Below are positions 3,244 through 64,000 of a DNA stretch of 64,000 bases, piece by piece. How positions within the stretch are numbered: the first letter of the stretch is position 1; each line of letters begins with the position of its first letter. The DNA lies in assembly GCF_040802235.1 (NCBI RefSeq), contig NC_133169.1:40865034-40929033 (forward strand). Direction: 5' to 3'. Both the position numbers and the translations under genes were made by a program. The DNA comes from Manis javanica (Eukaryota; Chordata; Mammalia; Pholidota; Manidae). A model generated the notes under the pieces. The model was not told the DNA's origin. It made no database searches and saw only the letters and a list, made by a program, of their open reading frames with translations.

Positions 3244-3259
3244 AAGATGTTCCAATAAC
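3244..3259 (+). repeat. Left TSD of the outer L1-ERV chimera
   Basis: The 16-bp sequence aagatgttccaataac occurs here and again at 19620-19635, directly after the poly(A) of the LTR end. The upstream context ctt|aaga fits the L1 endonuclease preference (TT/AAAA-like). It shows that everything between the two copies belongs to one insertion plus later insertions nested in it. Confidence 0.92.
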
Positions 3260-4092
3260 TGGTGGAGCCAAGATGGTGGCGTGAGTAGAGCAGCGGAAAT
3301 CTCCTCCCAAAACCACATATATCTAGGAAAACATAACAAAGACAAATCTTCCTAGAATAAAGACCAGAGGACACAGAACAACATCCAGAGCACATCCACA
3401 CCTGCGAGAACCCAGCGCCTCACAAAGGGGGTAAGATACAAGCCCCTGCGGGTGGGACATGTGCGCCCCTGCCCCCAGCTCCTGGTGGGAGGAGAGGAGT
3501 CAGCAGGGAGGGAGAGGGAGCCCAGGACTGCTGAACACCCAGCCCCAGCCATCCGGACCAGAGCGCACACACAGTGCATGTGCCAGACCCTGGATACTAG
3601 GGAAACAGGGCACCACGAACGGTGAGTGGGTACCAGAGGCTGGCCCTGGAGGACAAAAAAAAAGCAAATGGTCATTTTTTTTTGTTGTTGTTGTTGTTTT
3701 GTTTTGGTGAGCGGTGTTTGGAAGTCTTAAAGGGGCAGGGCAGGACACTTAGTCCAGAGGTAGGGAACCTGGGTATCTCTGTGCAGTCTAATCCCCTGGG
3801 CTCCAGGGAACACGGAGGCCCCTTACAGAGATAAATAGCTTCCCGACCGCTCCCCCTCCAATACGACTCTACCACATTGGAGGAGCAGCCCAAGCCAGGA
3901 CACACCCACAGCAACAGTGGAGATAAACTCCATTGCAGCCAGGCAAGAAGCAGAAGCCCTGTCTGCATGTAGCTACCCAGCACAAGCCACTAGAGGTCGC
4001 TGTTCTCTCAGGAGAGAAAGGCCACAAACCAACAAGAAGGGAAGTTCTTCCAACCATCAATCGTCCCAGCTCTGCAAACTATTACTATCACC
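3260..4092 (+). promoter_or_regulatory. L1 5' UTR / internal promoter region, copy 1
   Basis: The start ggtggagccaagatggtgg matches the usual L1 5' end and lies just inside the TSD. The 833-bp UTR contains one copy of the unit that is tandemly repeated in L1 copy 2, and a (GTT)n run at about 3682-3706. L1 5' UTRs normally hold an RNA polymerase II promoter. No separate factor site is claimed. Confidence 0.75.
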
Positions 4093-4997
4093 ATGAAAAG
4101 ACAAAATTACAGGCAAACCAAGATCACAGAGACATCAGAGAAGGAGACAAACCAAACCAGTCTTCCTGACAAAGAATTCAAAATAAAAATCATAAACATA
4201 CTGACAGAGATGCAGAGAAATATGCAAGAGAAATTTGATGAAGTCTGGAAGGAGATCAGAGATGCCAGAAAGAAGATTACAGAAATGAAACAAACTCTGG
4301 AAGGATCTACAAGCCGAATGGACAAGATGCAAGAGGCCAGTGATGGAATTGAAACAAGAGAACAGGAACGCATAGAAGCTGACATAGAGAGAGACAAAAG
4401 GATCTCCAAGGAATGAAACAATATTAAGAAAACTGAGTGACCAATCGAAAAGGAACAATATCCATATTATAGGAATACCAGAAGAAGAAGAAGAGAGAAA
4501 AAGGGATAGAAAGTGTCTTGGAAGAAATAATTGCTGAAAACTTCCCCAAACTGGGGAAGGAAATAATTTAACAGACCACGAAAATACACAGAAACCCCAA
4601 CAGAACGGATCCAAGGAGGACAACACCAAGACACATAATAATTAAAATGGCTAGGATCAAGGACAAGGAAAGAGTTTTAAAGGCAGCTAAAGAGAAAAAG
4701 GTCACCTATAAATGAAAACCCATCAGGCTAACATCAGACTTCTCAACAGAAACCCTACAGGCCAGAAGAGAATGGCATGATATATTTAATGCAATGAAAC
4801 AGAAGGGCTTTGAACCAAGGATACTGTATCTAGCACGACTATCATTTAAACATGATGGCGAAATTAAACAATTCCCAGACAAGCAAAAACTGAGGGAATT
4901 TGCTTTCCACAAACCACCTCTACAGGGCATCTTACAGGAACTGCTCCAGATGGGAGCACACCTAGAAAGAGCACAGAAGAAAACACCCAACATATGA
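4093..4997 (+). pseudogene. L1 ORF1 (broken), copy 1
   Basis: The ATG at 4093 opens MKRQNYRQTKIT, the same start as in copies 2 and 3. A basic N-terminus is followed by a Glu/Lys-rich coiled coil (about 4190-4400). Frame is lost near 4410 and again later, and the C-terminal part resumes at about 4794-4997, ending AQKKTPNI. ORF1p normally trimerises and binds L1 RNA; the trimer coiled coil here has one 11-residue unit where copy 2 has three. It cannot make a full protein. Confidence 0.88.
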
Positions 4998-5144
4998 AGA
5001 ATGGAGGAGGAGGAATAAGAAGAGAGAAAAGAAAAGAATCTTCAGACAGTGTATATAACGGCTCGATAAGTGAGCTAAGTTAGGCAGTAAGATACTAAAG
5101 AGGCCAACCTTGAACCTTTGGTAACCACAAATTTAATGCCTGCA

Positions 5145-8100
5145 ATGACAATAAGTACATATCTTTCAATAGTCACCCTAAATGTAAATGGACTTAATGC
5201 ACCAATCAAAAGACACAGAGTAATAGAATGGATAAAAAACCAAGATGCATCTATACGCTGCTTACAAAAAACTCACCTCAAACCCAAAGACATGTGCAGA
5301 CTAAAAGTCAAGGGATGGAAAAATATATTTCAGGCAAACAACAGCGATAAGAAAGTAGGGGTTGCAGTACTAATATCAGACAAAATAGACTTCAAAACAA
5401 AGAAAGTAACAAGAGATAAGGAAGGACACTACATAATGATAAAGGGCTCAATCCAACAAGAGGATATAACCATTCTAAATGTATATGAACCAAACACAGG
5501 AGCACCAACATATGTGAAACAAATACCAACAGAACTAAAGGGGGAAATAGACTGCAATGCAATCATTTTAGGAGACTTAAACACACCACAAACCCCAAAG
5601 GATAGATCCACCAGGCAGAAAATAAGTAAGGACATGTAAGCACTGAACAACAAAGTAGAGCAGATGAACTTAATAGACATCTATAGAACTCTACATCCAA
5701 AAGCAACAGGATATACATTCTTCTCAAGTGCACATGGAACATTCTCCAGAATAGACCACCTACAAGCCCACAAAAAGAGCCTCAGCAAAATCCAAAATAC
5801 TGAAATTCTACCGACCAATTTTTCAGAACACAAAGGTATAAAACTAGAAATAAATTCTACAAAGTAAACAACAAGGCTCACAAATACATGGAGGCTTAAC
5901 AACATGCACCTAAATAATCAATAGATCAACAAACAAATTAAAAGAGAGATCAAGGAATATATAGAAACAAATGACAACAACAACACAAAGCCCCAACTTC
6001 TGTGGGACTCAGCGAAAACAGTCTTAAGAGGAAAGTATATAGTGACCCAGGCACACTTGAAGAAGCAAGAACAATCCCAAATGAATAGTCTAACATCACA
6101 ATTATCAAAATTGGAAAAAGAATAACAAATGAGGCCTAAAGTCAGCAGAAGGAGGGACATAATAAAGATCAGAGAAGAAACAAACAAAATTGAGAGGAAT
6201 AAAACAATAGCAAAAATCAATGAAACCAAGAGCTGGTTCTTCGAGAAAATAAACAAAATAGATAAGCCTCTAGCCAAACTTATTAAGAGAAAAAGAGAAT
6301 CAACACAAATCAACAGAATCAGAAATGAAAACGGAAAAATTACGACAGACTCCACAGAAATACAAAGAATTATTAAAGACTAGTATGAAAACCTATATGC
6401 CAACAAGCTGGAAAACCTAGAAGAAATGGACAACTTCCTAGAAAAATACAAACTTCCAAGACTGACAAAGGAAGAAACACAAAAGTTACACAAACCAATT
6501 ATGAGCAAAGTAATTGAAACGGTAATCAAAAAACTACCCAAGAACAAAACACCCGGGCCGGATGGATTTACCTCAGAATTTTATCAGACACACAGAGAAG
6601 CACAATCCCATTCTCCTTAAAGTTTTCCAAAAAATAGAAGAGGAGGGAATACTCCCAAAGTCATTGTATGAAGCCAGCATCACCCTAAAACCGAAACCAG
6701 GCAAAGACCACACCAAAAAAGAAAATTACAGACCAATATCCCTGATGAATGTAGATGCAAAAATACTGAATAAAATATTGGCAAACTGAATTCAAAAGTA
6801 TATAAAAAAGATCATATACCATGACCAAGTGGGATTCATCCCAGGGATGCAAGGATGGTACAACATTCGAAAATCCATCAACATCATCCACCACATCAAC
6901 AAAAAGAAAGACAAAAACCATATGATCATCTCCATAGATGCTGAAAATGTATTTGACAAAATTCAACATCTATTCATGATAAAAACTCTCAGCAAAATGG
7001 GAATAGAGGGCAAGTACCTCAACGTAATAAAGGCCATATATCATAAACCCACAGCCAACACTATACTGAACATCTATAAGCTGAAAGCTTTTCCTCTGAG
7101 ATCAGGAACTAGACAGGGATGCCCACTCTCCCCACTGCTATTTAACATAGTACTGGAGGTCCTAGCCACGGCAATCAGACAATAAAAAGAAATACAGGGA
7201 ATCCAGATTGGTAAAGAAGAAGTTAAACTGCCACTATTTTCAGATGACATGATATTGTACATAAAAATCCCAAAAGACTTCACCCCAAAAGTACTAGAAC
7301 TGATATTGGAATACAGCAAAGTTGCAGGATACAAAATTAACACACAGATATCTGTGGCTTTCCTATACACTAACAATGAACCAATAGAAAGAGAAATCAG
7401 GAAAACAATTCCATTCAGAATTGCATCAAAAAGAATAAAATACCTAGGAATAAATCTAACCAAAGAAATTAATGACCTATACTCTGAAAACTGCAAGTCA
7501 CTCTTAAGAGAAATTAAAGGGGATACTAACAAATGGAAACTCATTCCATGATTGTGGCTAGAAGAATTAATATCATCAAAATGGCCATCCTGCCAAAAGC
7601 AATATACAGATTTGATGCAATCCCTATCAAATTACCAGCAAGATTCTTCAATGAACTGGAACAAATAATTCAAAAATTCATATGGAAACAGCAAAGACCT
7701 CGAATAGCCAAAGCAATTCTGAGAAAGAAGAATAAAGAAGGGGGGATCACAATCCCCAACTTCAAGCTCTACTATAAAGACATAGTAATCAAGACAATTT
7801 GGTATTGGCACAAGAACAGCCACAGACCAGTGTTACAGACTAGAAACTCCAGGCATTAACCCAAACATGTATGGTGAATTAATATTTGATAAAGCAGCCA
7901 TGGACATACAATGGCAAAATAATAGTCTCTTCAACAGATGGTGCTGGCAAAACTGGACAGCTACATGTAGGAGAATGAAACTAGACCATTGTCTAACCCC
8001 AATACACAAAAGTAAATTCAAAAAGGATCAAAGACCTGAATGTAAGTCATGAAACCATTAAACTCGTGGAAAAAAAGATAGGCAAAAACCTCTTAGACAT

Positions 8101-8836
8101 AAACATGAGTGACCTCTTCTTGAACATATCTCCCTGGGCAAGGAAAACAACAGCAAAAATGAACAAGTGGGACTATATTAAGCTGAAAAGCTTCTGTACA
8201 GCAAAAGACACCATCAATACAACAATTAAAAAATGGGCAGAGGAACTGAACACACAGTTCTCCAGAAAAGAAATACAGATGGCCAGACACATGAAAAGAT
8301 GCTCCACATGGCTAATTATCAGAGAAATGCAAATTAAAACTACAATAAGGTATCACATCACACCAGTAAGGATGGCTGCCATCCAAAAGACAAACAACAG
8401 CAAATGTTGGTGAGGCTGTGGAGAAAGGGGAACCCTCCTACACTGCTGGTGGGAATGTAAATTAGTTCAACCATTGTGGAAAGCAGTGTGGAGGTACACC
8501 AAAATGCTCAAAACAGACTTACCATTGGACCCAGGAATTCCACTCCTAGGAATTTACGCTAAGAATGCAGCAATCAATTTTGAGAAAGACAGATATACCC
8601 CCATGTTTATCGCAGCACTATTTATAATAGCCAAGAATTGGAAGCAACCTAAGTGTCCATCATTAGATGAATGGATAAAGAAGATGTGGTACATATACAC
8701 AATGGAATACCATTCAGCCATAAGTAGAGGGCAAATCCTACCATTTGCAGCTACATGGAAGGAGCTGGAGGGTATTATGCTCAGTGAAATAAGCCAAGCT
8801 GAGAAAGAGAAATACCAAATGATTTCACTCATCTGA
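5145..8836 (+). pseudogene. L1 ORF2 (broken), copy 1
   Basis: L1 ORF2 encodes an endonuclease (EN) and reverse transcriptase (RT). EN opens with TLNVNGLNAPIKRHRV. The usual QETH active-site motif reads QKTH (near 5270), the usual SDH reads SEH (near 5827), and the usual IYAPN reads VYEPN. The RT box reads FSDD instead of FADD (near 7238). The C-terminus contains [15 protein letters not shown] and [13 protein letters not shown]. At least ten frame breaks exist. An in-frame stop-restart, TAA CAA ATG at 6123-6131, is shared with copy 2. ATG 5145 is the first good start; the upstream ATG of copies 2 and 3 is lost. Confidence 0.9.
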
Positions 8837-9197
8837 GGAGTATAAGAACAAAGGAAAAACTGAAGGAACAAAATAGCAGCGGAATCACAGAACCCAAGAA
8901 TGGACTAACAGGTACCAAAGGGAAAGGGACTGGGAAGGATGGGTGGGTAGGGAGGGATAAATTGGGGGGGGGAAGAAGAAGCGGGTATTAAGATTAGCAT
9001 GCATAGGGGTGGTGGGAGAAAGGTGAGGGCTGTACAACACAGAGAAGACAAGTAGTGATTCTACAACATTTTGCTGTCCACTATGCTGATGGACAGTGAC
9101 TGTAAAGGAGTATATAGTGGGGTCCTGGTATAGGGGAGAGCCTAGTAAACATAATATTATTCATGTAAGTGTAGATTAAAGATAAAAAAAAAGAAGG
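8837..9197 (+). other. L1 3' UTR with G-rich tract, copy 1
   Basis: This segment runs from the ORF2 stop to the A-rich end 'gataaaaaaaaagaagg'. A strongly G-rich purine tract lies at about 8921-8980. G-rich 3' UTR tracts able to form quadruplexes are a known L1 trait. The same tract appears in the minus copy (about 16862-16955) and in copy 3 (about 47388-47430). Confidence 0.8.
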
Positions 9198-9360
9198 AAA
9201 AAAAAGGGGGATTACTCCCTGATAGGATAAAACTAACTGTAAATCAATGATTAATGCATGCTTTAAATATGCTTAATTTTGATCACTTAAAGGGTGTCAC
9301 ATGATTGGCTATGGAGGTACACTTTTCTGATAATATTACTTTCTCTTAAAAAAAAAAAAA
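9198..9360 (+). other. Linker between L1 and ERV, flanked by A-tracts
   Basis: About 150 bp of non-L1, non-coding sequence sits between the L1 A-rich end (about 9183-9207) and a second A-run (9348-9360). The minus-strand chimera has the same linker at about 16507-16705. A segment with its own terminal A-run directly after an L1 3' end is what a 3' transduction leaves behind. Confidence 0.8.
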
Positions 9361-10451
9361 GCAGTTCCTGTGTGGTGACCTCCAATGAGTTCTACACAAT
9401 GATATAAAGGGCATATCAAAGTGTGGGCAATGTTCTGTTTGTGTTTATACAGAGGATCAAAGCCTAATTTGGCGACCCAGAAAATGAACTAAGATATGAT
9501 ATGAAGAAGAACTTCCAACATCAGCACTCTCGGGAAGAGTCATACCAGAAGATGATCATCATAAACCCTTCACAAAGATCCAGGTGATGCTGCAGTTGTA
9601 GCTGCATCCATCCCACCGGTTCCTGGACTTGCCATTGGAATGAAGGAGATATCTAAGCTGACCTGTGCTTTCAGTAAAACAACAAATTTGACTGGATCTA
9701 TACTGTTGGAACTCAATCAAGAATTAGGAGAAATGAAAGTTGTAGTGCTCCAAAATCTTACAACTACAGACTATATACTGTTAAAAGAATATATGGGATG
9801 TAAACTGTTCCCAGGAATGTGTTGTTTTAATCTGTCTGATTTCTCTCAGATTGTTCAAGTACAGTTGAACAATATCCATCATATCATAGACAAATTTTCG
9901 CAAATGCCTAGGGTCCCTAAATGGTTTTTTTGGCTTCACTGGAGATGGCTGGTAATTATAGATCTGCTTTGGTTATGTAACTATATTCCTATTATGTTAA
10001 TGTGTGTGCGCAATTTAATTAGTAGTTTAAAACCTATACGTGCTTAAGTTACTCTACAAGAAGATATGTCAAAGAAATAATCAATCCTCCCATGATTTCT
10101 TCCATCTGCTACCTCTATAGCTTTTCTTCTTCCTTCCTAATTACAACCCTTAAATAGAATTCGTGCCTCATATCGAATTTACCGAGTATCATAACTCCTC
10201 CAGGTGATAAAGATACCTCGAGACAAGTGCTGGGCATAGAAGCCACAGGGCATAAATTTGCAATGAAGTGAAAAGCTAACCTTTTCAAACAATATGGCTT
10301 CTCTTTCACATACCAACTTTACATCTCCCTGTATGGCCCCAGAAGATGACTGGTTAGCCAGAGACGGGTAAGATTCCTCAAGGGAGGAACAACCTAAGAC
10401 AGGCACAGTCGCAGGGGGGCCATCAGGTGAGAAATTGGGGAACAACAGTGG
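9361..10451 (+). mobile_element. ERV-derived env / 3' segment, copy 1
   Basis: This segment follows the linker A-run and holds a leader-like part (9361-9639), a retroviral env transmembrane remnant (9640-10047) and non-coding sequence up to the proposed LTR start. It lacks gag, pol and the env surface subunit, so it is only the 3' portion of a retroviral transcript. The phrase 'tttggcgacccagaaaatg' near 9468 could come from a spliced leader, but that is a guess. Confidence 0.75.
9640..10047 (+). pseudogene. env: Retroviral env transmembrane-subunit remnant
   Basis: The open frame gives 135 residues from a non-viral start. It holds the core of a retroviral TM ectodomain: a heptad-like stretch, a region positioned like the immunosuppressive segment, and the disulfide motif CKLFPGMCC (CX6CC, about residues 53-61). 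A hydrophobic segment rich in Trp, Leu and Ile (about residues 95-125) looks like the membrane anchor. CX6CC is typical of gammaretrovirus-type Env. The surface subunit, signal peptide, cleavage site and fusion peptide are absent, so it cannot act as an Env. The frame may be open by chance or by youth of the insertion. Confidence 0.75.
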
Positions 10452-10645
10452 TGAAGCTTAGAACCTCACCCCCTCCTGTTTTGAGAGAAAGCTTCTGCAT
10501 CCATGGATGTTTTATTGCCCTTGTCTAGCTCAGATAAGCACATAGTCTACAGGCACACACCTGATCATCTACAATTGCTCTCTTACAACACTAAACTATG
10601 TTTTCTAACTTTATATTGCATCTACCTACCTCTTCAGCATATTAT
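10452..10645 (+). repeat. LTR-like U3 start (interrupted by L1 copy 2)
   Basis: The proposed LTR starts near 10452 (tgaagcttagaacctcacc) and is cut by the second L1. It resumes at 19275. Comparison with the uninterrupted minus copy (14873-15430) supports the join. The exact LTR start is uncertain because no clean polypurine tract was found. Confidence 0.6.
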
Positions 10646-10663
10646 TAAAAATAAAAATAATAA
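10646..10663 (+). repeat. Left TSD of L1 copy 2
   Basis: taaaaataaaaataataa occurs here and at 19257-19274. The copy at 63361-63809 shows the same LTR region without interruption, giving the empty-site structure. Confidence 0.85.
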
Positions 10664-12324
10664 CGCAGAGCCAGGATGGCGGCATGAGTAGAGCAGTGGA
10701 AATCTCCTCCCAAAACCACATAGATCTATGAAAATATAACAAAGAAATCTCTTCCTAAAATAGAGAGCAGAGGACACAGGACAACATCCAGACCACATCC
10801 ACACCTGCAAGAACCCAGCGCCTCGCGAAGGGGGTAAGATACAAGCCCTGGCCTGGCAGGACCCCAGCACCCCTCCCACCGGCTCCTGGAGCGGGGAAAG
10901 AAACCAGAGCGGTTTTACTTTTTGGCGAGTGCTTTTTGGAAGCTTTAAAGGGACAGGGACCCCAATACCAGTGAAACAGGGCAGCAAGACTGGTGAGCGG
11001 GTGCCTGAGACCAGCACCTGAGAACAAAGAAAATCGCGCATTTTTCCTAGTACTGGGGAGGCAGGGCGGCAGGACCGGTGAGCAGGTGCCTGAGACCGGC
11101 GCCTGGGGACAGGGAAAATCGTGTTTTTCCCTTTTTATTTTTGGCGAGTGCTTTTTGGAAGCCTTAAGGGGAGAGGGACCTCAATGCCAGGGAGGCAGGG
11201 CAGCGGGACCGGTGGGTGGGTGCCTGAGACCAGCGCCTGGGGACAAAGAAAATCACGTGTATTTCTCAATACCAGGGAGGCAGGGAGGTGGAACAGGTGG
11301 GCGGGTGCCTGGGGCCAGTGCCTGAGGACAAAGAATATCACGCGTTTTTTCCTTTTTTTTCTTTTTTTTGTTGAGTGCTTTTTGGAAGCCGTAAAAGGAC
11401 AGGGACCCTAATGCCAGGGAGGCGGGGCGGAAGGACCGGTGATCGGGTGCCTGGGACCGGTGCCTGAGGACAAAGAAAATGGCACATTTTTCCCTTTTTT
11501 TTTTGGCAAGTGCTTTTTGGAAGCCTTGAAGGGATGGGGACCCCAATACCAGGGAGGCAGTGAAGCAAGACCAGTGGGCGGGTGCCTGGCGGACAAAGAA
11601 AATTGCGCATTTCTCCCTTTTTTTTTCTTTTTGGCGAGTGTTTTTGGAGGCCTTAGGGGGACAGGGACCCCAGTGCCAGGGAGGCAGGGCAGTAGGGCTG
11701 GTGGGCGGGTGCCTGGGATCGGCTTCTGGGGACGGAAAGGGTCGCGCGTTTTTCCCTTTTTTTTTGGCGAATGCTTTTTGGAAGCCGTGAAGGGACAGGG
11801 ACCCCGGTGCTAGGGAGGCAGGGCAGCAGGACCGGTAAGCGTGTGCCTGTGACCGGTGCCTGAGGACAAAGAAAATCATGCGTTTTTTCTTTTTTTTTTT
11901 TTTTCCTCTTTCGTTGTTGCTGTTGTTGTTTTGGTTTGAAGAGTGATTTTTGGAAGTCTTAAAGGGGCAGGACAGGACACTTAGACCAGAGGCAGGTAAT
12001 CTGGGGACCTCTGGACACTCTAACCCCCTGGGAAACAGGGAGCACAGAGGCCCCTTACGGAGATAAATACCCTCCCGGCCACTCCCTCTCCAACAGGGTT
12101 CCACCATTTTGGAGGAGCAGCCCCAGCCAGGCCACACCCACAGCAACAGTGGAGACAAACCACATAGCAAATGGGCAGGTAGCAGAAGCCCTGTCTGTGC
12201 ACAGCTGCCAAGCATAGGCCACTAGAGGTTGCTATTCTCCCAGGAGAGGAAGGCCACAAACCAACAAGAAGGAAAGCTCTTCCAGCTGTCACTCGTACCA
12301 GCTCTGCAAACTATCTCTATCACC
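10664..12324 (+). promoter_or_regulatory. Expanded L1 5' UTR, copy 2
   Basis: The UTR is about twice as long as in copies 1 and 3 because of the monomer array at 10915-11890. In mouse L1, tandem 5' UTR monomers act as additive promoter units; whether these do is inference. Confidence 0.7.
10915..11890 (+). repeat. Tandem 5' UTR monomers (about 8 units)
   Basis: Each unit contains 'ggcgagtgctttttggaagc', a 'cagggaggcagggc' segment, a '(c)ggtgcctgagaccggcgcctg' segment and 'gacaaagaaaatc'. The gtgcctg mark lies at 11001, 11086, 11220, 11305, 11447, 11582, 11709 and 11843. Spacing is 127-142 bp, with two short 85-bp units that lack the 'gctttttggaag' part. Units are CpG-rich and end in T-runs of variable length. 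Copies 1 and 3 have a single unit each. Confidence 0.88.
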
Positions 12325-13286
12325 ATGAAAAGGCAAAACTACAGGCAGACAAAGATCACAGAGACAACACCTGAGAAGGAGACAGACCTAACTAGTTCTC
12401 CTGAAAAAGAATTCAAAATAAAAATCATGAACATGCTGACAGAGATGCAGAAAAAAATGCAAGAGCAATGGGATGAGATGCAGAGAAAAATGCAAGAGCA
12501 GTGGGATGAGATGCAGAGAAAAATGCAAGAGCAGTGGGATGAAGTCCGGAAGGAGATCACAGATGTCAGGAAAGAGATCACAGAAGTGAAACAATCCCTG
12601 GAAGGATTTATAAGCAGAATGGATAAGATGCAAGAGGCCATTGAAGGAATAGAAGCCAGAGAACAGGAACGTATAGAAGCTGACATAGAGAGAGATAAAA
12701 GGATCTCCAGGAATGAAACAACACTAAGAGAAACATGTGACCAAGACAAAAGGAAAAACATTCGTATTATAGGGATACCAGAAGAGGAAGAAAGAGGAAA
12801 AGGGATAGAAAGTGTCTTTGAAGAAATAATTGCTGAAAACTTCCCCAAACTGGAGGAGGAAATAATTGAACAGATCACAGAAACACACAGAACCCCCAAC
12901 AGAAAGGATCCAAGGAAGACAACACCAAGACACCTAATAATTAAAATGGCTAGGATCAAGGACAAGGAAAGAGTTTTAAAGGCAGCTAGAGAGAAAAAGG
13001 TCACCTATAAAGGAAAACCCATCAGGCTAACATCAGACTTCTCAAAAGAAACCCTACAAGCCAGAAGAGAATGGCATGATATATTTAATGGAATGAAACA
13101 GAAGGGACTTGAACCAAGGATACTGTATCAAGCATGACTATCATTTAAATATGTTGGCGGGATTAAACAATTTCCAGACAAGCAAAAGCTGAGGGAATTT
13201 TCTTCCCACAAACCACCTCTACAGGGCATCCTACAGGGTCTGCTCTAGATGGGAGCACTCCTAAAAAGAGCACAGAACAAAATACA
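12325..13286 (+). pseudogene. L1 ORF1, nearly open, copy 2
   Basis: The ATG at 12325 opens MKRQNYRQTKITETTPEKE. 270 residues are open up to a TGA at 13135-13137. Copy 1 has CGA (Arg) at this codon, so one CpG transition made the stop. The frame then continues with the expected C-terminal sequence (FPDKQKLREF) until a TAG near 13245. Layout: basic N-terminus, coiled coil (about residues 30-110) with three 11-residue repeats, the RNA-binding RRM-like core with IRIIGIPEEEE, and the C-terminal domain with RPIRLTSDFS-like sequence (here KPIRLTSDFS). The product would lack most of the C-terminal RNA-binding domain. Confidence 0.9.
12445..12543 (+). repeat. 3 x 33-bp repeat in ORF1 coiled coil
   Basis: Three direct units at 12445-12477, 12478-12510 and 12511-12543 encode MQ(K/R)KMQEQWDE plus E/M/V junctions, an 11-residue repeat. 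Units 2 and 3 are almost identical, so the expansion is recent. Copy 1 has one such unit and copy 3 has a different, shorter segment. Confidence 0.93.
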
Positions 13287-13425
13287 CAACATACAAAGAA
13301 TGGAGGAGGAGGAAAAAGAAGGGAGAGAAAAAAAGAATCTCCAGACAGTGTATATAACAGCTCAATAAGTGAGCTAAGTTAGGCAATAATATACTAAAGA
13401 AGCTAACCTTGAACCTTTGGTAACC

Positions 13426-14861
13426 ATGAATCTAAAGCTTGCAATGGCAATAAGTACATATCTCTCAATAGTCACCCTAAATGTAAATGGACTTAATGCA
13501 CCAATCAAACGACACAGAGTAATAGAATGGATAAAAGAGCAAGACCCATCTATATGCTGCTTACAAGAAACTCACCTCAAACCCAAAGACAAGCACAGAC
13601 TAAAAGTCAAGGGATGGAAAAAACATATTTCAGGCAAACAACCGTAAGAAGAAAGCAGGGGTTGCAGTACTAATATCAGACAAAATAGACTTCAAAACAA
13701 AGAAAGTAACAAGAGATAAGGAAGGACACTACATAATGATAAAAGGCTCAGTTCTATATATATATGCACCCAACACAGGAGCACCAGCATATGTGAAACA
13801 AATACTAACAGAACTAAAGAGGGAAATAGACTGCAATGCATTCATTGTAGGAGACTTCAACACACCACTCAGCCCAAAGGATAGATCCACCGGGTAGAAA
13901 ATAAGTAAGGACACACAGGCACTGAACAACACACTAGAACAGATGGACCTAATAGACATCTATAGAACTCTACATGCAAAAGCAACAGAATATACATTCT
14001 TCTCAAGTGCACATGGAACATTCTCCAGAGTAGACCACATACTAGCTCACAAAAAGAGCCCCAGTAAATTCCAAAATATTGAAATTCTTCCAACCAATTT
14101 TTCAGACCATAAAGGTATAAAAGTAGAAATAAATTCTACAAAGAAAACAAAAAGGCTCACAAACACATGGAGGCTTAACAACATGCTTCTAAATAATCAA
14201 TGGATCAATGAACAAATCAAAATAGAGATCAAGGAATATATAGAAAAAAATGACAACAACAACACAAAGCCCCAACTTCTGTGGGACTCAGCGAAAGCAG
14301 TCTTAAGAGGAAAGTATATAGCAATCCAGGCACACTTGAAGAAGCAAGAACAATCCCAAATGAATAGTCTAACATCACAATTATCAAAATTGGAAATAGA
14401 ATAACAAATGAGGCCTAAAGTCAGCAGAAGGAGGGACATAATAAAGATCAGAGAAGAAATAAACAAAATTGAGAAGAATAAAACAATAGCAAAAATAAAT
14501 GAAACCAACTGCTGGTTCTTTGAGCAAATAAACAAAATAGATAAGCCTCTAGCCAAATTTATTAAGAGAAAAAGAGAATCAACACAAATCAACATAATCA
14601 GAAATGAGAATGGAAAAATCACAACAGACTCCACAGAAATACAAAGAATTATTAAAGACTACTATGAAAACCTATATGCCAACAAGCTGGAAAACCTTGA
14701 AAAAATGGACAACTTCCTAGAAAAATACAACCACCCAAGACTGACCAAGGAAGAAACACAAAAGTTACACAAACCAATTACGAGCAAAGAAAATGAAACC
14801 GTAATCAAAAAACTACCCAAGAACAAAACCCTGGGGCCAGACAGATTTACCTCAGAATTTT
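13426..14861 (+). pseudogene. L1 ORF2 first half, broken, copy 2
   Basis: The start ATG 13426 (MNLKLAMAIS) is shared with copy 3. EN motifs are intact by eye: NVNGLN, QETH, IYAPN, GDFN and SDHKG. Breaks are a frameshift at about 13645, a TAG at about 13897 (CAG in relatives) and the shared stop-restart TAA CAA ATG at 14402-14410. The rest of the frame is open to the insertion point, where 'FTSEF' is cut by the minus-strand chimera; it continues with [16 protein letters not shown] at 19124. Confidence 0.88.
14846..14861 (+). repeat. Left TSD of the minus-strand chimera
   Basis: tttacctcagaatttt is found here and at 19108-19123. Copy 1 carries the uninterrupted target at about 6566-6581, which is the empty site. 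Confidence 0.92.
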
Positions 14862-14872
14862 TTTTTTTTTTT

Positions 14873-15430
14873 GAGAGGGCATCTCTCATATTTATTGATC
14901 AAATGGTTGTTAACAACAATAAAATTCAGTATAGGGGGGGCAACGCTCAATGTACAATCATTAATCCATCTCAAGCCTAATTCTTGTCAGTCTCCAATCT
15001 TCTGAAGCATAACAAACAAGTTCTTACATGGTGAACGAATTCTTACATAGTGAATAAATTCTTACATGGTGAGCAGTACAAGGGCATTCATCACAGAAAC
15101 TTTCGGTTTTGGTCATGCATTATGACCTATAAACAATCAGGTCAAATATGAATATTCGTTTGATTTTTGTACTTGATTTATATGTTGATCCCACATTTCT
15201 CCTATTATTATTATTATTTTTATTTTTAGTAAAATGCTGAAGTGGTAGGTAGATGCAAGATAAAGGTAGAAAACATAGTTTAGTGCTGTAAGAGGGCAAA
15301 TGTAGATGATCAGATGATCAGGTGTGTGCCTATGGACCAAGTAGTAATCCAGGCTAGACAAGGGCAGCAAGACATCCACGGATGCAGAAGATTTCTCTCA
15401 AAGCAGGGGGGGGTGAGGTTCTGAGCCTCA
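14873..15430 (-). repeat. LTR-like U3-R end, uninterrupted copy
   Basis: This 558-bp segment is the complete reference for the LTR-like end. On its sense strand it starts tgaggctcagaacctcacc, carries three and a half 19-bp tandem repeats (about 15019-15080) and the poly(A) signal AATAAA (plus-strand TTTATT 14891-14896). It ends with gagatgccctctca directly before poly(A). Confidence 0.75.
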
Positions 15431-15833
15431 CCTCTGTTGATCCCCAAATTCTCACCTGATGGCCCCCCTGCGACTGTGCCTGTCTTAGGTTGCTCCACCC
15501 TTGAGGAATCTTACCCGTCTCTGGCTAACCAGTCATCTTCCAGGGCCATACAGGGAAATGTAAAGTTGGTAAGTGAGAGAGAAGCCATATTGTTTGCAAA
15601 GGTTAGCTTTTTACTTCTTTGCAGATTTATGCCCTGTGGCTTCTATGCCCAGCACTTGTCTCGAGGTATCTTTACCACCTGGAGGAATTATGATACTCGA
15701 TAAATTCGATATGAGGCACGAATTCTATTTAAGGGTTGTAATTAGGAAGGAAGAAGAAAAGCTATAGATGTAGCATATGAAGGAAACATGGGAGGATTGA
15801 TTATTTCTTTGACATATCTTCTTGTATAGTACC

Positions 15834-16275
15834 TTAAGTATGTATAGGTTTTAAACTACTAACTAATTTGCACACACATATTAACATAATAGGAATACGA
15901 TGACATAAACAAAGCAAATCTATAATTACCATCCATCTCCAGTGAAGCCAAGAAAACCATTTAGGCACCCTAGGCATTTGTGAAAATTTATCTATGATAT
16001 GATGGATATTGTCCAACTGTACTTGAACCATCAGACAAATTAAAGCAGCCCATTTCTGGGATCTGTTCACATCCCATATGTTCTTTTAACCATAGATAGT
16101 CTATAGTCATGAGATTTTGGAGTGCTACAACTTGCACCCCTCCCAACTCCTGGTTGAGTTCCAACAGTACAGATCCGGTCAAATTCGTTGTCTCACTGTA
16201 TGCACATGCCAGCCTAGACATCTCCCTCCTCATTCCTATGGCAAGTCCAGGAGACGGTGGGCTGGATGCAGCCAC
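15834..16275 (-). pseudogene. env: Retroviral env TM remnant, minus copy
   Basis: This is the paralogue of 9640-10047, with sequence such as LLELNQELGGVQVVALQNL. It is broken by a frameshift near 16040. The CX6CC motif has lost one cysteine (it ends GC). Relative to the outer copy it therefore lacks a TM disulfide residue and a continuous frame. No surface subunit is present. Confidence 0.75.
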
Positions 16276-16506
16276 AACCGCAGCATCGTCCTAATCCCTG
16301 TGGAGGCTTCTTGATGATCATCCCCGGCACAAGTCCTCCAGAGAGTGCTGATGCCGGAAGCTCCTCCTCATATCATATCTTAGTTCATTTTCTGGATATC
16401 CAAGCTAGGCATTGATCTTCTGCGTAGAAACAAACAGACCCTTTGCCCACACTTTGACATGCCCACTATACCACTGTGCAGAACTCATTGGAGGTCAGCA
16501 CACAGT

Positions 16507-16705
16507 AACTGCTTTTTTTTTTTTTTTAATTAAGTGAAAGGAATATTATCAGAAAAGAGTACCTCCATAGCTGATCATCTGACACCCTTTAAGTGATCAA
16601 CATTAAGGATATTTAAAGCATGCATTGATCTTTGATTTACCAATAGTTTTATCCTATCAAGGAGTAATCCCCCTTTTCTTTCTCTCTTTCTTTTTTTTTT
16701 TTTAA
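16507..16705 (-). other. Linker with A-tracts, minus copy
   Basis: The same non-L1 sequence as at 9198-9360 lies between the env segment and the L1 3' UTR. It includes 'gataggataaaacta' and 'cacttaaagggtgt' on the minus strand and an A-run at each side. Confidence 0.8.
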
Positions 16706-17042
16706 TTTTTAATCTACACTTACATGAAGAATACTATGTTTACTATGCTCTCCCCTATATCAGGTCCCCCCTAACAACCACATTACAGTTACTGTCCATC
16801 AGCTTAGGAAAATGTTGTAGAGTCACTACTTGTCCTCTCTGTGTTGTGCAGCACACCCTCCACTTTCTCCCTCCCCCCATGCATGCTAATCTTAATACCC
16901 CCCTTCTTCTTCCCCCCCTTATCCCTCCCTGCCCACCCATCCTCCCCAGTTCCTTTCCCTTTGGTACCTGTTACTCCATTTTTGTGTTCTGTAATTCTGC
17001 TGCTGTTTTGTTCCTTCAGTTTTTCCTTTGTTCCTATACTCC

Positions 17043-19107
17043 TCAGATGAGTGAAATCATTTGGTATTTCTCCTTCTCCGCTTGGCTTATTTCACTGAGC
17101 ATAATATTCTCCAGCTCCATCCATGTTGCTGCAAATGGTTGGATTTTTCCACTTCTTATGGTTGAGTAGTATTCCATTGTGTATATGTACCACATCTTCT
17201 TTATCCATTCATCTACCGATGGACATTTAGGTTGCTTCCAATTCTTGGCTATTGTAAATAGTGCTGCGATAAACATAGGAGTGCATCTGTCTTTCTCAAA
17301 CTTGATTGCTGCGTTCTTAGGGTAAATTCCTAGGAGTGGAATTCCTGAGTCAAATGGTAGGTCTGTTTTGAGCATTTTGATGAACCTCCACACTGCTTTC
17401 CACAATGGTTGAACTAATTTACATTCCCACCAGCAGTGTAGGAGGGTTCCCCTTTCTCCACAGCCTCGCCAACATTTGTTGTTGTTTGTCTTTTGGATGG
17501 CAGCTATCCTTACTGGTGTGAGGTGATACCTCATTGTAGTTTTAATTTGCATTTTTCTGATAATTAGCGATGTGGAGCATCTTTTCATGTGTCTCTTGGC
17601 CATCTGTATTTCTTTTTTAGAGAACTGTCTGTTCAGTTCCTCTGCCCATTTTTTAATTGGGTTATTTGTTTTTTGTTTGTTGAGACGTGTGAGCTCTTTA
17701 TATATTCTGGACGTCAAGCCTTTATCGGATCTGTCATTTTCAAATATATTCTCCCATACTGTAGGGTTCCTTTTTGTTCTATTGATGGTGTCTTTTGCTG
17801 TACAGAAGCTTTTCAGCTTAATGTAGTCCCACTTGCTCATTTTTGCTGTTGTTTTCCTTGCCCGGGGAAATATGTTCAAGAAGAGATCACTCATGTTTAT
17901 GTCTAAGAGGTTTTTGCCTGTGTTTTTTTCCAAGAGTTTAATGGTTTCATGACTTACATTCAGGTCTTTGATCCATTTTGAGTTTACCTTTGTATATGGG
18001 GTTATACAATGGTCCAGTTTCATTCTCCTACATGTAGCTGTCCAGTTTTGCCAGCACCATCTGTTGAAGAGACTGTCATTTTGCCATTGTATGTCCATGG
18101 CTCCTTTATCAAGTATTAATTGACCATATATGCTTGGGTTAATTTCTGGGGTCTCTAATCTGTTCCACTGGTCTGTGGCTCTGTTCTTGTGCCAGTACCA
18201 AATTGTCTTGATTACTATGGCTTTGTAGTAGAGCTTGAAGTTGGGGAGTGAGATCCCCCCTACTTTATTCTTCTTTTTCAGGATTGCTTTGGCTATTAGG
18301 GGTCTTTGGTTTTTCCATATGAATTTTTGAATTATTTGTTCCAATTCATTGAAGAATGTTGCTGGTAATTTGAGAGGGATTGCATCAAATCTGTATATTG
18401 CTTTGGGCAGGATGGCCATTTTGACAATATTAATTCTTCCTAGCCATGAGCATGGGATGAGTTTCCATTTATTAGTGTCCACTTTAATTTCTCTTAAGAG
18501 TGACTTGTAGTTTTCAGAGTATAAGTCTTTCACTTCTTTGGTTAGGTTTATTCCTAGGTATTTTATTCTTTTTGATGCAATGGTGAATGGAATTGTTTTC
18601 CTGATTTCTCTTTCTATTGATTCGTTGTTAGTGTATAGGAAAGCTACAGATTTCTGTGTGTTAATTTCGTATCCTGCAACTTTGCTGTATTCCGATATCA
18701 GTTCTAGTAGTTTTGGAGTGGAGTCTTTAGGGTTTTTTATGTACAGTATCATATCATCTGCAAATAGTGACAGTTTAACTTCTTCTCTACCAATCTGGAT
18801 TCCTTGTATTTCTTTGTTTTGTCTGATTGCTGTGGGTAGGACCTCCAGTACTATGTTAAATAACAGTGGGGAGAGTGGGCATCCCTGTCTGGTTTCCGAT
18901 CTCAGTGGAAATGCTTTCTGCTTCTCGCTGTTCAGTATAATGCTGGATGTGGGTTTATCATATATGGCCTTTATTATGTTGAGGTACTTGCCCTCTATTC
19001 CCATTTTGCTGAGAGTTTTTATCATGAATGGATGTTGAATTTTGTCAAATGCTTTTTCAGCATCTATGGAGATGATCATGTGGTTTTTGTCTTCCTTTTT
19101 GTTGATG
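17043..19107 (-). pseudogene. L1 ORF2 C-terminal two-thirds, open frame
   Basis: 678 codons are open on the minus strand from 19079, and the frame continues back to the truncation point. It starts in the RT domain ([13 protein letters not shown]), holds the catalytic box [11 protein letters not shown] and the [11 protein letters not shown] segment, then the long C-terminal region with the Cys-rich end [20 protein letters not shown] and [11 protein letters not shown]. The endonuclease and the N-terminal RT part are missing by 5' truncation, and there is no promoter. It is not a host gene. The open frame shows a recent insertion from an active source. Confidence 0.93.
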
Positions 19108-19123
19108 TTTACCTCAGAATTTT
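19108..19123 (+). repeat. Right TSD of the minus-strand chimera
   Basis: Second copy of tttacctcagaatttt (see 14846-14861). Confidence 0.92.
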
Positions 19124-19256
19124 ATGAGACACACAGAGAAGACATAGTACCCATTCTCCTTAAAGTGTTCCAAAAAATTGAAGAAGAGGGAATACTCCCA
19201 AACTCATTCTATGAAGCCAACATCACCCTAATACCAAAACCAGGCAAAGACCCCAC
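19124..19256 (+). pseudogene. L1 copy 2 ORF2 continuation and 3' truncation
   Basis: The reading frame resumes with [20 protein letters not shown] and ends at IPKPGKDPT. It stops just before the A-rich codons that are AAAAAAGAAAAT in copies 1 and 3. There is no downstream ORF2 or 3' UTR. The join to the LTR lies in the TSD. Confidence 0.88.
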
Positions 19257-19274
19257 TAAAAATAAAAATAATAA
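19257..19274 (+). repeat. Right TSD of L1 copy 2
   Basis: Second copy of taaaaataaaaataataa (see 10646-10663). Any poly(A) of copy 2 merges with the A-rich start of this TSD. Confidence 0.85.
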
Positions 19275-19619
19275 TAATAAAGGAGAAATATGGGATCCAC
19301 ATATAAATCAAGTATAAAAATCAAATGAATATTCATATTTGACCTGATTGTTTATAGTTCATAATGTGAGATCAAAACCGAAAGTTTCTGTGTTGAATGC
19401 CCTTGTACTGTTCACCATGTAAGAACTTATTCACTATGTAAGAATTTGTTCACCATGTAAGAACTTGTTCGTTATGCTTCAGAAGATTGGAGACTGACGA
19501 GAATTAGGCTTGGCGTGGAATAATGATTGTGCATTGAGCATTGACTCCCCTATACAGAATTTTATTGTTGTTAACCATTTGATCAATAAATATGAGAGAT
19601 GCCCTCTCAAAAAAAAAAA
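19275..19619 (+). repeat. LTR-like end and poly(A) of the outer chimera
   Basis: The LTR resumes here. It holds three 19-bp tandem units (19411-19429, 19430-19448, 19449-19467) and a partial fourth, then the AATAAA signal at 19585-19590. The end is gatgccctctca at 19609, followed by poly(A). Confidence 0.85.
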
Positions 19620-19635
19620 AAGATGTTCCAATAAC
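19620..19635 (+). repeat. Right TSD of the outer chimera
   Basis: Second copy of aagatgttccaataac, after the poly(A). The first base is ambiguous with the A-run. Confidence 0.92.
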
Positions 19636-36159: not shown

Positions 36160-36275
36160 TACCTCCCATTTCTATAAATGAAGAAATTGAGTCCCACAGG
36201 GGTTTTGTGACTTGCCAAAATCATAGCCAGAAAAAAATGGGATATAGACTAAAATCTAAGTGTCTGGCCTGGCCT
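36160..36275 (+). mobile_element. MIR SINE fragment
   Basis: The pattern cccatttctataaatgaag...attgagtcccacaggggttttgtgacttgcc...atcatagccag matches the MIR core and 3' part in order. It lies inside the ERV-L between pol and the 3' LTR. Confidence 0.7.
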
Positions 36276-36660
36276 CCCTCGGGATCCCTCCTACTCCCAC
36301 AGACCCCGTCGCCCTCCCTTGGACTCCCTCAGCATCCCTTGGACACCCTAGCCCTCCCTCACCCTTCCTCAGACCCCATGGACTCCTGCGCCCTCCTTTG
36401 GACTCCCTCAGACTCTCTCAGACTTCATCAACCTCCCTCACCTTCCCTCAGAATCCCTCGCCCTCCCTCGGACTCCTTCAGACTCCCTCACCCTCTCTAT
36501 GAAGCCCTCGCCCTCTTTCGGATTCCCTCGCACTCCCTCACCCTCCTTCACCCTCCCTCAGACTCCTTCACCCTCCCTCAGATTCCCTTGGACTCCTTTG
36601 CCCTCCCTCGGATTCACTCTGGGTCCCTCGCCCTCCCTCAGACTCCCTCGCCGCCCCTCG
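36268..36660 (+). repeat. C/T-rich minisatellite
   Basis: About 390 bp of tandem variants of 'ccctcggactccctc' and 'accctccctcagactc', with unit lengths near 10-20 bp and no exact period. The strand is almost pure pyrimidine apart from the 'gga' and 'aga' interruptions. It abuts the MIR fragment. A 185-codon frame across it is a by-product of the repeat. Confidence 0.85.
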
Positions 36661-37066
36661 CCTGCCACTGTCCTGTCACAGGACCACTCTCTTGCATGCA
36701 TTCTACCTGATGGGCAAGATTTGCCTTTGCTGGTGTCATTAAAATGTGCATCTTATCTTCTTTAAGGTTATTTGCTTCTACAGTCCCTGTGACCTGGCCC
36801 TGGCCCCTGGCTGCAGTTTCCTCATGGTGATTGCTGTGAACTCCCAACTGTTCACCTGCTGACTGCCTGTGGAATGGGTGAGTTATGGCCTTAAACTGCC
36901 TAGGACTTTGAATCTAGCTGAATCCTCTGGCCTGAGGATTATCATGATTTTATTGCTATTGTTGTTGTATATCAGTAGTCTGGTTACAGTGCTCCACCTT
37001 TCTCACACAGGTGCCATTGTGAAAGATGGGGAGTGAGTAGATTGTGAGGTGACATTTCTGAAGGGG
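36661..37066 (+). other. ERV-L sequence before 3' LTR
   Basis: Non-coding and unassigned. It ends in the purine-rich ctgaaggggtgt junction, which would be the polypurine tract just before the 3' LTR. Confidence 0.55.
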
Positions 37067-41429: not shown

Positions 41430-42339
41430 TGAAAGGAGAAGCCAAGATGGTAGTGTAAGTGGGGCAGTGGAAATCTTCTCCCAAAACCATATATATTTTT
41501 GAAAATACAACAAATACAACTATTCCTAAAAGAGAGACCAGAAGATACAGTACAACAGCCAGGCTATATCTACATCTGTGAGAACTCAGCACCTCATGAA
41601 GGGGGTAAGATTCAAGCCGCAGCCCAGCAGGACCCAAGTGCGCCCTCCACTACAGCCCACCAGCAGGAGGAGAGGAGTCAGAGTGGGGAGGGAGTGGGAG
41701 CCAAAGACTGCTAAATCACCAGCCCTAGTGATCTGCACCAGGAGCACAGACACACATTGCATGGTGTGTTGGATATTAGGGAAATGGAACAGTAAAATCT
41801 GCAAGTGGGTCCCTGCAGCCAACGCCCCTGGAACAGAAGAAAAACAGGTGCTTTTTGAAAGTCTTAAAAGGACAAGGGCCTCACAGCTGGACGGAAGCAT
41901 CCTGGCACACTCAGCCCAGCAGGTGCGAATCCTGGGGAAATTCAGGTGCTCCAGTCCCTGGAAGGCAGTGCAGTCCTGAAGCTCCTCATGGTAATAAACA
42001 GCCTCCCATCCATTCCCGCTCTGGCATGGCCCCGCCATAGCAGGGGAGCAACCTGAGAGTGGCTAGACCCACAGCTACCCCCAGAGCCTCCTCTGCAGAC
42101 ACCCGGCCCAGACTCAGAGGTTCCGCCAATGTGCACAGACAGAGGAAGCTGGGACAGGGCTCCAAGGGTTGCCACTCTCGCAGAAAAGCACACCCGGTGC
42201 ACCTGCCCCTCCCTGCAAGGATCTGTGCTGCCTCACCCATGGCAGCTCAGAAAATAAAACTGGAAGCTGTTCCCCATGTATGGGACATTGTTCTCCCAGC
42301 TGACACACATGCCAACTGCCCATGACTATCTCTATAGCC

Positions 42340-43193
42340 ATGAAAAGGCAGAAGAATCTGATCCAGTCCAGAATAACCCAGACAAACCCTAAGAGGGAGC
42401 CTGGGGAAATAGATTTAATCAATCTTCCTGAAAAAGAATTCAAAATAAAGGTCATAACCCTGCTGATGGACCTGCAAAGAAATATGCAAGAGTTAAAGCA
42501 TCAAGCTAAGATGGAGAATACAGAAATAAAACAATCTCTCGAAAGACTTAAGAGCAGGCTGGATGAGGTGAAAGAGGCCGTTAGTGGAATAGAAATCAGA
42601 GAACAGGAGCACAGAGAAGCTGAGGCAGAGAGAGATAAAAGGATCTCCAGAAATGAAAGAATACTAAGAGAACTGTGTGACCAATCCAAATGGAACAATA
42701 TTTGCATTATAGGGTTACAAGAAGAAGAAGAGAGAGAAAAAGGGATAGAAAGTGAATTTGAAGAAACAATTGCTGAAAACTTCACCAAAGTGGAGGAGAA
42801 AACAGTCTCTCAGACCATGGAAGCCCACAAATCTCCCAACACAAGGGACCAAAGGAGGACAACACCAAGACACATAATAATTATAATGGCAAAGATCAAG
42901 GACAAGTAAAGAGTATTAAAGGCAGCCAGAGAGAGAAGAAAGGTAAACCTACAAAGGAAAACCCATCAGGCTATCATCAGACTTCTCAACAGAAACCTTA
43001 GTGGCCAGAAGAGAATGTCATGGTATATTTAATGCAATGAAACAGAAGGGCCTTGAACCAAGGATACTGTATCTGGCATGATTATCATTTAAATATGAAG
43101 GAGGGATTAAGCAATTCCCAGATAAGCAAAAGTTGAGAGAATTTGCCTCCCACAAACCCCCTCTACATGGTAGTTTAAAGGGACTGCTTTAGA
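42340..43193 (+). pseudogene. L1 ORF1 (broken), copy 3
   Basis: The ATG at 42340 opens MKRQKNLIQSRITQTNPKRE. The coiled coil lacks the 11-residue repeats of copy 2. The frame stops at 42907 (TAA where relatives have GAA) after MAKIKDK, then shifts at about 42935. The C-terminal half is readable as FPDKQKLREFASHKPPLHG. The missing part is the C-terminal RNA-binding domain. Confidence 0.88.
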
Positions 43194-43487
43194 TGGGAAC
43201 ACTCCTAAGACTAAATAGATGACAACAGAGAAAATCAAATCTCAGTAAAGAAAGCAGGCCAACCAAATACGAACTGAAGGCAAAAAATAAAATCAACTAC
43301 CCACAAAAGCAGTTAAAGGAAGCACAAAAGAGCACAGAGTTAAACAACCAACATATAAAGAACAGAAGAGGAGGAATAAGAAGTGAGAAAAATTAAGAAT
43401 GACCAGACAGTGTTTAGAATAGCTCAGTAAGCGAATTAAGTTAGACAGTAAGATACTAAAGAAGCTAACCTTGAACCTTTGGCAAAC

Positions 43488-46400: not shown

Positions 46401-47302
46401 TCATGAAACCATAAACTCTTAGAAAAAAACATAGGCAAACATTTCTTGGGCATAAACATGAGCGACTTCTTCATGAACATATCTCCCCAGGCAAGGGAAA
46501 CAAAAGCAAAAATGAACAAGTGGGACTATATCAAGCTGAAAAACTTCTGTACAGCAAAGGAAACCACCATTATAACAAAAAGGCATCCTACAGTATGGGA
46601 AAATATGTTCATAAATGACAGACCTGATAAAGGGTTGACATCCAAAATATATAAAGAGCTCATGCACCTCAACAAACAAAAAGCAAATAATCCAATTAAA
46701 AAATGGGCAGAGGAGCTGAACAGACATTTCTCCAAAGAATAAATTCAGGTGGCTAACAGGAACATGAAAAGATGCTCCACATTGCTAAGCATCAGAAAAA
46801 TGCAAATTAAAACCACACTGAGATATCACCACACACCAGTAAGGATTGCCATGATTCAAAAGACAAACAACCACAAATGTTGGTGAGGTTGTGGAGAAAG
46901 GGGAACCCTCCTACACTGCTGGTGGGAATGTAAATCAGATCATCCACTGAGGAAAGCAGTATGAAGGTTCATCGAAAAGCTCAGAATAGAAATACCATTT
47001 GATCCAGGAATTCCACTTCTAGGCATTTACCCTAAGAATGCAGCAGCCCAGTTTGAAAAAGACAAATGCACCCCTATGTTACAATAGCCAAGAAACGGAA
47101 GCAACCTAAGTGTCCATCAGTAGATGAATGGATAAAGAAGATGTGGTACATATACACAATGGAATTTTATTCAGGCATAAGAAGAAAACAAATCCTACCA
47201 TTTGCAACAACATGGATGGAGCTAGAGGGTATTACGCTCAGTGAAATAAGCCAGGCAGAGAAAGGCAAGTACCAAATGATTTCATTTATATGTGGAGTAT
47301 AA
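43488..47302 (+). pseudogene. L1 ORF2 (broken), copy 3
   Basis: The start MNLKPTMAISTYLSI is shared with copy 2. EN holds NVNGLN and QETH. The RT box reads FADN at about 45595, so a catalytic aspartate is lost. At the site where copies 1 and 2 read TAA CAA ATG, this copy reads GAA CAA ACG (about 44486), the ancestral-looking state. The normal ORF2 stop is mutated and the frame ends a few codons later at 47300-47302. Many frameshifts occur. Confidence 0.9.
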
Positions 47303-63346: not shown

Positions 63347-63360
63347 AAAAATAAAGGCAT
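63347..63360 (+). repeat. Left TSD of the short L1-ERV end
   Basis: aaaaataaaggcat occurs here and at 63810-63823. Confidence 0.85.
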
Positions 63361-63809: not shown

Positions 63810-64000
63810 AAAAATAAAGGCATTATTTTATAGAGGACTCAGTGAATGTGTTGGTAGAAGACTTGTTGTACAAAATATGATGAAGTAAATTATTCAGACT
63901 AAAAAAATGATACAAGATGTATAGTCCATTTGAGAAAAATTAGTAAATAGTATAAGAAATGATGAATACATGGATAAATGCCAATACTTCATTTTTAATT

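Follow-up and report, generated by a model that had tools for sequence, protein, structure and literature searches.

A LINE-1 lineage of the pangolin Manis javanica with a retroviral 3' terminus

We have extended the initial annotation of a 64,000-nucleotide stretch of the Manis javanica genome (NC_133169.1, forward-strand positions 40,865,034 to 40,929,033; hereafter the window), in which three insertions derived from LINE-1 (L1) end at one common base, CTCTC followed by poly(A), within sequence of an endogenous retrovirus (ERV). The insertions very probably belong to an L1 lineage, coding for open reading frame 2 (ORF2), whose 3' terminus is that of a retroviral RNA, acquired through L1 insertion in a provirus and a read-through 3' transduction that became fixed in a large lineage. 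Copies at dispersed sites have a common L1-ERV joint, a single target-site duplication (TSD) around both parts where whole units can be tested, and a retroviral end; the parent ERV is present in the same genome with the joint site empty, and copies with open ORF2 carry long poly(A) tails. Genome-wide searches covered 2.56 Gb in 63 contigs.

Results

The L1 and ERV parts form one mobile unit

The three insertions in the window (3260-19619, 14862-19107 on the minus strand and 63365-63811) are all present with the common terminal base, as the initial annotation had reported; the third consists of the tail part of the unit only. TSDs of 16, 16 and 14 bp had been assigned to them. Each insertion does have its own TSD, that of the minus copy being TTTACCTCAGAATTTT (14846-14861 and 19108-19123, 16 nt), while that of the third, AAATAAAGGCAT[C/T]ATT (63349-63364 and 63812-63827), is 16 nt long with one mismatch instead of 14. 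In the minus copy one TSD surrounds both parts, in agreement with the earlier view that L1 and ERV sequence entered in one event, and its ORF2 frame matches RVT_1 with an E value of 1.8e-28. A further L1 of the window, copy 3, was correctly described as lacking the ERV tail: its native AATAAA and its own flanking repeat, AAAATACTCAC, are seen.

A genome search with the junction, put forward in the initial annotation as the check on its reading, located the exact joint at 2,209 places (18-base L1 3' untranslated region (UTR) end and ERV joint, spacer of 4-34 bases), the 18-base end by itself being present at 7,682. Among the best 30 matches, the window's own copy included, from 40 scored of 2,354 candidates, L1 3' UTR, integrase piece and envelope gene (env) followed one another in that order in every case, with about 18 extra bases at the joint in L042. 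The U3-R part of the long terminal repeat (LTR) was reached within the stretch in 27 of these 30 loci, and the GATGCCCTC end was present in 22, always followed by an A-rich run.

The association was also followed along the first 12.04 Mb of contig C1, which hold 53 L1 3' ends of this 18-mer type. An exact tail end lies 1.2-3.5 kb downstream on the same strand in 22 of the 53 (median 1,844), compared with a mean of 0.48 and a maximum of 4 in shifted controls. The exact joint is present in 23, and the joint and/or the tail end in 40; the remaining 13 all carry integrase or env sequence, so that 53/53 are fused, a proportion uninformative on other L1 types as the 18-mer was picked from fused copies. 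L1 ends keeping the native AATAAA occur at 4,533 genome places, and none of the 23 in the same 12.04 Mb has the tail end downstream.

Mobility was assessed from TSDs. In 34 scanned loci, of which 12 reached the edge of the stretch and 22 were testable, 10 of the 22 tail copies had clear TSDs, 13-19 nt long, whose first base is an A preceded by T, as expected from the L1 endonuclease (sites read by eye). Both the 5' end and the tail end lay inside the stretch in 5 of 29 loci, and a single TSD enclosed L1 and ERV in four of these whole units (L036, with 10 nt, L052, L054 and L056) and not in L032. The common joint at dispersed sites and these single TSDs uphold the earlier conclusion that the unit moves as one; among the few testable copies we noticed none in which L1 and ERV each had a TSD of their own, the finding that would have spoken against it. 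Tail-only copies with a TSD resemble ordinary 5' truncations at differing points. The unit has the poly(A) end, the 5' truncation and the long TSDs at TT/AAAA-type sites of a LINE-1, together with an ORF2 encoding reverse transcriptase; what it does not have is a poly(A) signal of its own at the very 3' end, which is retroviral U3-R.

Several arrangements in the searched loci depart from the simple unit. In L089 and L090, two of the 13 remaining C1 ends, an A-rich L1 end is joined directly to env (GCAGTTCCTG) without the integrase piece. Head-to-tail tails occur in L018 (1043-1774) and at C1:2241790, 2242160 and 2242532, in steps of about 370-396 bp, the two tails of L018 being joined without intervening poly(A), as a template jump might give. 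Opposite-strand pairs of L1 3' UTR ends lie exactly 4,381 bp apart at C1:1823198(-)/1827579(+), 4500825/4505206 and 23476391/23480772, perhaps a duplicated inverted arrangement. At C1:2540862(+), 5363995(-) and 5980592(+), L1 ends with a native AATAAA are each preceded on their own strand, at a distance of exactly 2,719 bp, by the end of a fused tail, which may point to duplication of a composite.

The tail is a single retroviral 3' piece

The order of L1 3' UTR, linker, transmembrane (TM) part of env and LTR given in the initial annotation stands; the linker is not a separate component. It aligns, on into env, with provirus L063 and corresponds by its position there to retroviral integrase sequence, and because it is the integrase end of the polymerase gene (pol) the tail is a single retroviral piece: integrase C-terminus, env without most of the surface (SU) part, TM, a non-coding stretch, polypurine tract, U3 and R. 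A sequence search of the Protein Data Bank (PDB) matched the TM frame (9565-10044) to the TM of avian sarcoma/leukosis virus (ASLV) at 8.6e-10 and identified RNaseH upstream of the joint site in L063 by a match to polymerase chain 7sr6 at 2.3e-11, the match of the L063 integrase peptide to integrases being weak (E 0.034-0.075). Pfam gave no match for the TM, RNaseH or integrase peptides. A second A-run in the linker was considered as a further poly(A) tail and dismissed, the L063 provirus having matching sequence there. Two LTRs with U5 and a TSD of 4-6 bp, as in an ERV, are not what is found: the unit has a single U3-R without U5, poly(A) and, where clear, TSDs of 10-20 nt.

Relative to L063, about 0.9 kb of SU is absent from the tail. 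The same deletion is present in 10/10 fused copies printed, the window included, and in 0/9 ERV copies examined, and because it is common to the former and absent from the latter the fused copies are most likely of one origin, as judged from these sequences. Its breakpoints do not fit GT-AG, and splicing was therefore rejected as the source of the gap; a 4-base TGGA microhomology, read by eye, fits better. In a tree of U3-R sequences, built from 65 fused rows (63 used, two having no usable match) and 9 of 13 ERV loci (two skipped for length), 63 L1 tails and 7 ERV LTRs form a ladder-like arrangement, with nearest-neighbour distances of 0-0.6% for the closest copies, which would agree, weakly, with a single origin.

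The tail ends at the R/U5 border of an identifiable parent ERV

The 19-base tail end ATATGAGAGATGCCCTCTC followed directly by AAAAA is found at 18,640 genome places. Since the reversed control is found at 0, the shared end does not result from chance. Continuation beyond this end is rare: CTCTC followed by non-A, any base and non-A occurs at only 10 places, and CTCA followed by non-A at 88, of which five have a common continuing U5. These five are the LTRs L061-L065, which continue for about 105-115 bases to ...ACA (ATA in L065); in L064 and L065 a primer-binding-site-like leader follows the LTR, and the primer-binding site of the parent ERV looks to be of the Lys type. As these LTRs continue into U5 at the same point, the L1 tail stops where R meets U5. 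An AATAAA lies within 40 nt of the end in 50 of 55 tail ends examined. The position of the tail end at the R/U5 border strongly implies that 3' end processing relies on the LTR signal, as the initial annotation had proposed.

Tail pieces match the parent ERV (L061-L065) at about 80-93% DNA identity. L063, ordered RNaseH, integrase, env, LTR, U5, covers the integrase, TM, non-coding part and U3-R of the tail, and the sequence suggests a betaretrovirus-like pol combined with a CX6CC env. Eight further ERV copies were chosen from the best 40 of 482 candidates. In all nine, L063 included, integrase sequence continues across the joint site with no L1 in it. All eight further copies have SU sequence, though L095 only about 200 bases of it and L094 and L101 not the first 100 or so, and seven have U5. 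The parent proviruses differ from the L1 tail in keeping SU and mostly U5 and in having no L1 at the joint.

The joint site is A-rich in the 7/7 ERV copies printed, and reads TT/AAAA in four of them (L063, L094, L096 and L101). At this point most fused copies have ...A(n)(GAAA)nAAGGGGGATTACTCC, as expected if an L1 ending in a poly(A) tract had been inserted in a provirus. In the L1 lineage, for example in L104-L111, the short A-rich stretch of ERV origin has expanded to a (GAAA)n microsatellite whose length varies. In the SU frame of L063 (about 1180-2150), an Ig V-like domain is closest to SIRP proteins (SIRPA 7ygg, E 2.7e-12), with a Pfam Ig_3 value of 0.013 for the parent ERV SU frame, below the cut-off; the region of this domain is deleted from the L1 tail.

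Sampled L1 copies with open ORF2 belong to the fused lineage

The genome was searched with the ORF2 end of the minus copy, and the best 65 of 354,379 candidates were scored; as the query comes from a fused copy, other young L1 lineages may exist as well. Open frames of 1,288 aa or more occur in 53 of the 65 copies, 52 of them without a stop. The joint is located directly downstream in all eight L1s with full-length open ORF2 that were checked, and the five of these followed to their end all terminate in CTCTC and 23-34 A. The sampled L1s with open ORF2 therefore belong to the fused lineage.

Organisation of the window

The outer span, 3260-19619, had been taken as one unit. Its ends and tail are as described; the span also contains a separate, nested L1 (L1B, 10664-19256), which splits the tail of the first L1 (L1A) and is not a component of the fused unit (Table 1). 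L1A contains a single listed plus-strand ORF of at least 150 aa, with a length of 173 aa. The TSD of L1B is 18 nt long (TAAAAATAAAAATAATAA), and the minus copy sits inside this element. L1B itself ends within ORF2 at an A-rich stretch matching its 18-nt duplication and has no poly(A) tail of its own, which reflects either internal priming or later deletion. Elsewhere in the window, an imperfect, CT-rich tandem array with a 10-bp step occupies 36264-36692.

Table 1. Positions of the fused units, their parts and comparison elements in the window
Feature	Position	Strand	Remarks
5' TSD of outer unit, AAGATGTTCCAATAAC	3244-3259	+	3' copy 19620-19635; 16 nt
L1A: 5' end, decayed ORF1/ORF2, 3' UTR, A-rich L1 end	3260-9201	+	
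Former linker and more: pol end (integrase C-terminus) into env start	9202-9539	+	80% to provirus L063 849-1182
env TM frame, 160 codons and stop, CX6CC type	9565-10047	+	
Scar of the ~0.9-kb SU deletion	near 9576-9578	+	comparison with L063
ERV non-coding stretch, env to polypurine tract; broken at 10664 by L1B	10048-10663	+	
L1B, nested separate L1, 3' end within ORF2	10664-19256	+	TSD 10646-10663 / 19257-19274
Polypurine tract, AAAGGAGAAA	19279-19288	+	named by position and composition
LTR U3-R, AATAAA 19585-19590, terminal CTCTC at R/U5 border	19289-19608	+	
Poly(A) and 3' TSD of outer unit	19609-19635	+	
Second unit: 5'-truncated L1, 3' UTR, integrase piece, env, U3-R, poly(A); one TSD	14862-19107	-	
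ORF2 C-terminal frame of second unit, 678 aa, reverse transcriptase domain	17043-19079	-	
Third copy, truncated within ERV tail: end of non-coding stretch, polypurine tract, U3-R, poly(A)	63365-63811	+	
Comparison L1 (copy 3), own AATAAA, no ERV tail	about 41430-47656	+	mostly 80-90% identity to the other L1 copies in shared blocks

Discussion

The origin of the lineage may be pictured as follows. An L1 would have entered the integrase gene of an endogenous retrovirus, in the sense direction and at an endonuclease site rich in A. Transcription would have continued beyond the weak terminus of this L1 as far as the poly(A) site where R meets U5 in the 3' LTR of the provirus, so that the L1 RNA acquired the integrase end, env, U3 and R as its tail. 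A large L1 lineage would later have kept this 3' transduction as its permanent terminus. The poly(A) end which primes target-primed reverse transcription would then be made, cycle after cycle, by the retroviral AATAAA and not by an L1 signal. The empty sites in 9/9 ERV copies fit transduction, the source locus itself not having been found.

Several observations weigh against this interpretation. The source provirus holding the first L1 was not found in a pattern search that gave ten candidates; the two fetched, L102 and L103, have no integrase match upstream, and the remaining eight were assessed solely from the letters shown with each match. An ATTAAA survives near the L1 end in 25/40 spacers and an AATAAA in 2/40, so that the L1 end is not provably signal-free. 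The automatic search found no clear TSD for 12 of the 22 testable tail copies, although these include the outer unit of the window (L001), whose TSD is plain by eye, and the branch separating L1 tails from ERV LTRs is weakly supported (85/0; 81% of bootstrap trees). Finally, almost identical anatomy would result if the template had been switched from an ERV RNA to an L1 RNA.

Such a switch, in which the L1 reverse transcriptase copies ERV RNA from its poly(A) and jumps to the tail of an L1 RNA, giving in one step a fusion that is then amplified, is the main rival, and we consider it unlikely. The A-rich tract between the two parts is what a jump landing on an L1 poly(A) tail should leave, and PMC13174262 reports L1 insertions of chimeric structure in the human lineage. 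The ERV part, however, begins at an A-rich site, with TT/AAAA in 4/7 ERV copies, a feature predicted by L1 insertion and not by a jump in mid-template; a jump would, moreover, more naturally begin at the 5' end of an RNA, which counts against the switch. Independent movement of the tail, as a non-autonomous, SINE-R-like element mobilised in trans, is still less probable. The 18,640 tail ends exceed the 7,682 exact L1 3' UTR ends and many copies are tail-only, but this ratio is biased by differences in motif length and conservation, and clear tail-only copies start at scattered points in env and the LTR, as 5' truncation gives, with no common 5' end in a small sample.

Explanations without a mobile fused element fare far worse. 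Repeated spacings (657 bp twice, 4381 bp three times and 2719 bp three times) might suggest that the copies arose from a single fused locus, duplicated in segmental or satellite-like fashion. We rejected this as the main cause, and regard it as very improbable, because copies differ in 5' truncation point, poly(A) and flanks and many have L1-type TSDs; no shared flanks were seen in the loci read, in which flanks were not compared systematically. That L1 and ERV fragments were inserted separately and merely look joined is conceivable where ERV LTRs and L1s are both common and where L1B provides a nested insertion within the window itself. It was rejected as having practically no chance of being correct, being contradicted by one joint at 2,209 exact places and in 30/30 loci examined, by one TSD around both parts, by the fusion of 53/53 L1 ends and by the excess of correctly spaced tails (22 against a control mean of 0.48 and maximum of 4).

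The fused L1 resembles known systems in part. Ordinary L1 3' transductions mark small groups of copies. PMC12593883 describes how such transduction arises when transcription continues past the L1 end and uses a poly(A) signal farther downstream, and gives the 3' part of SVA as the env end and 3' LTR of HERV-K10 followed by poly(A). The read-through proposed here would be the same, with the A-rich L1 end kept in between, but in the fused lineage the transduced piece is the 3' end of thousands of copies and has later variants of its own. An env-LTR 3' part with poly(A) is shared with SVA, although from a different ERV. SVA, mobilised by L1 proteins in a cell assay (excerpt of PMC7353768), is non-autonomous with Alu-like and variable-number tandem repeat (VNTR) parts, whereas the fused unit is an L1 with ORF2 and its tail includes integrase sequence. 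CCCTCT hexamers, Alu-like and VNTR parts and a non-coding body would mark an SVA; here L1 ORF2 and 3' UTR lie directly upstream of the joint, hexamers, Alu and VNTR not having been searched for as such.

Chimeric insertions of L1 with small RNAs, Alu or mRNA (Law and Burns 2026, PMC13174262) likewise unite L1 and another RNA in one insertion. They differ in that the outline of that paper concerns the human lineage and sequence 5' of L1, its main text naming no pangolin, Manis, ERV or envelope. Ordinary 3' transductions and chimeric insertions account for single events but not for a 3' end common to a whole lineage. L1 families with newly recruited 5' UTRs, in perissodactyls and, by citation, in mouse and human (part of PMC5872511), are alike in that an L1 lineage was renewed by foreign regulatory sequence; there, 5' promoters were acquired, and here the 3' end. 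A single L1 inserted between env and the 3' LTR of a gamma ERV is reported in PMC12584738. A search of open-licence papers, which did not extend to Dfam and Repbase, found no L1 lineage described as ending in retroviral sequence.

Renewal of the L1 5' promoter is known; in Manis javanica it was the 3' end that was exchanged, for a retroviral one, in a lineage that went on to thrive. On balance we favour the view that the currently young, ORF2-competent L1 lineage depends on a captured LTR for the 3' end of its RNA and that each insertion seeds U3-R, the promoter half of an LTR. L1 could thus swap its 3' end as it does its 5' promoter, and the SINE-R of SVA would be one case of a repeatable route, the env-LTR end having become the tail of an L1-driven element here apparently independently of SVA. 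Comparison of tailed and tailless L1s within a single genome makes the 3'-end requirement of L1 testable. In addition, ERV counts and dates in such a genome may be off, because many apparent solo LTRs may be L1 tails.

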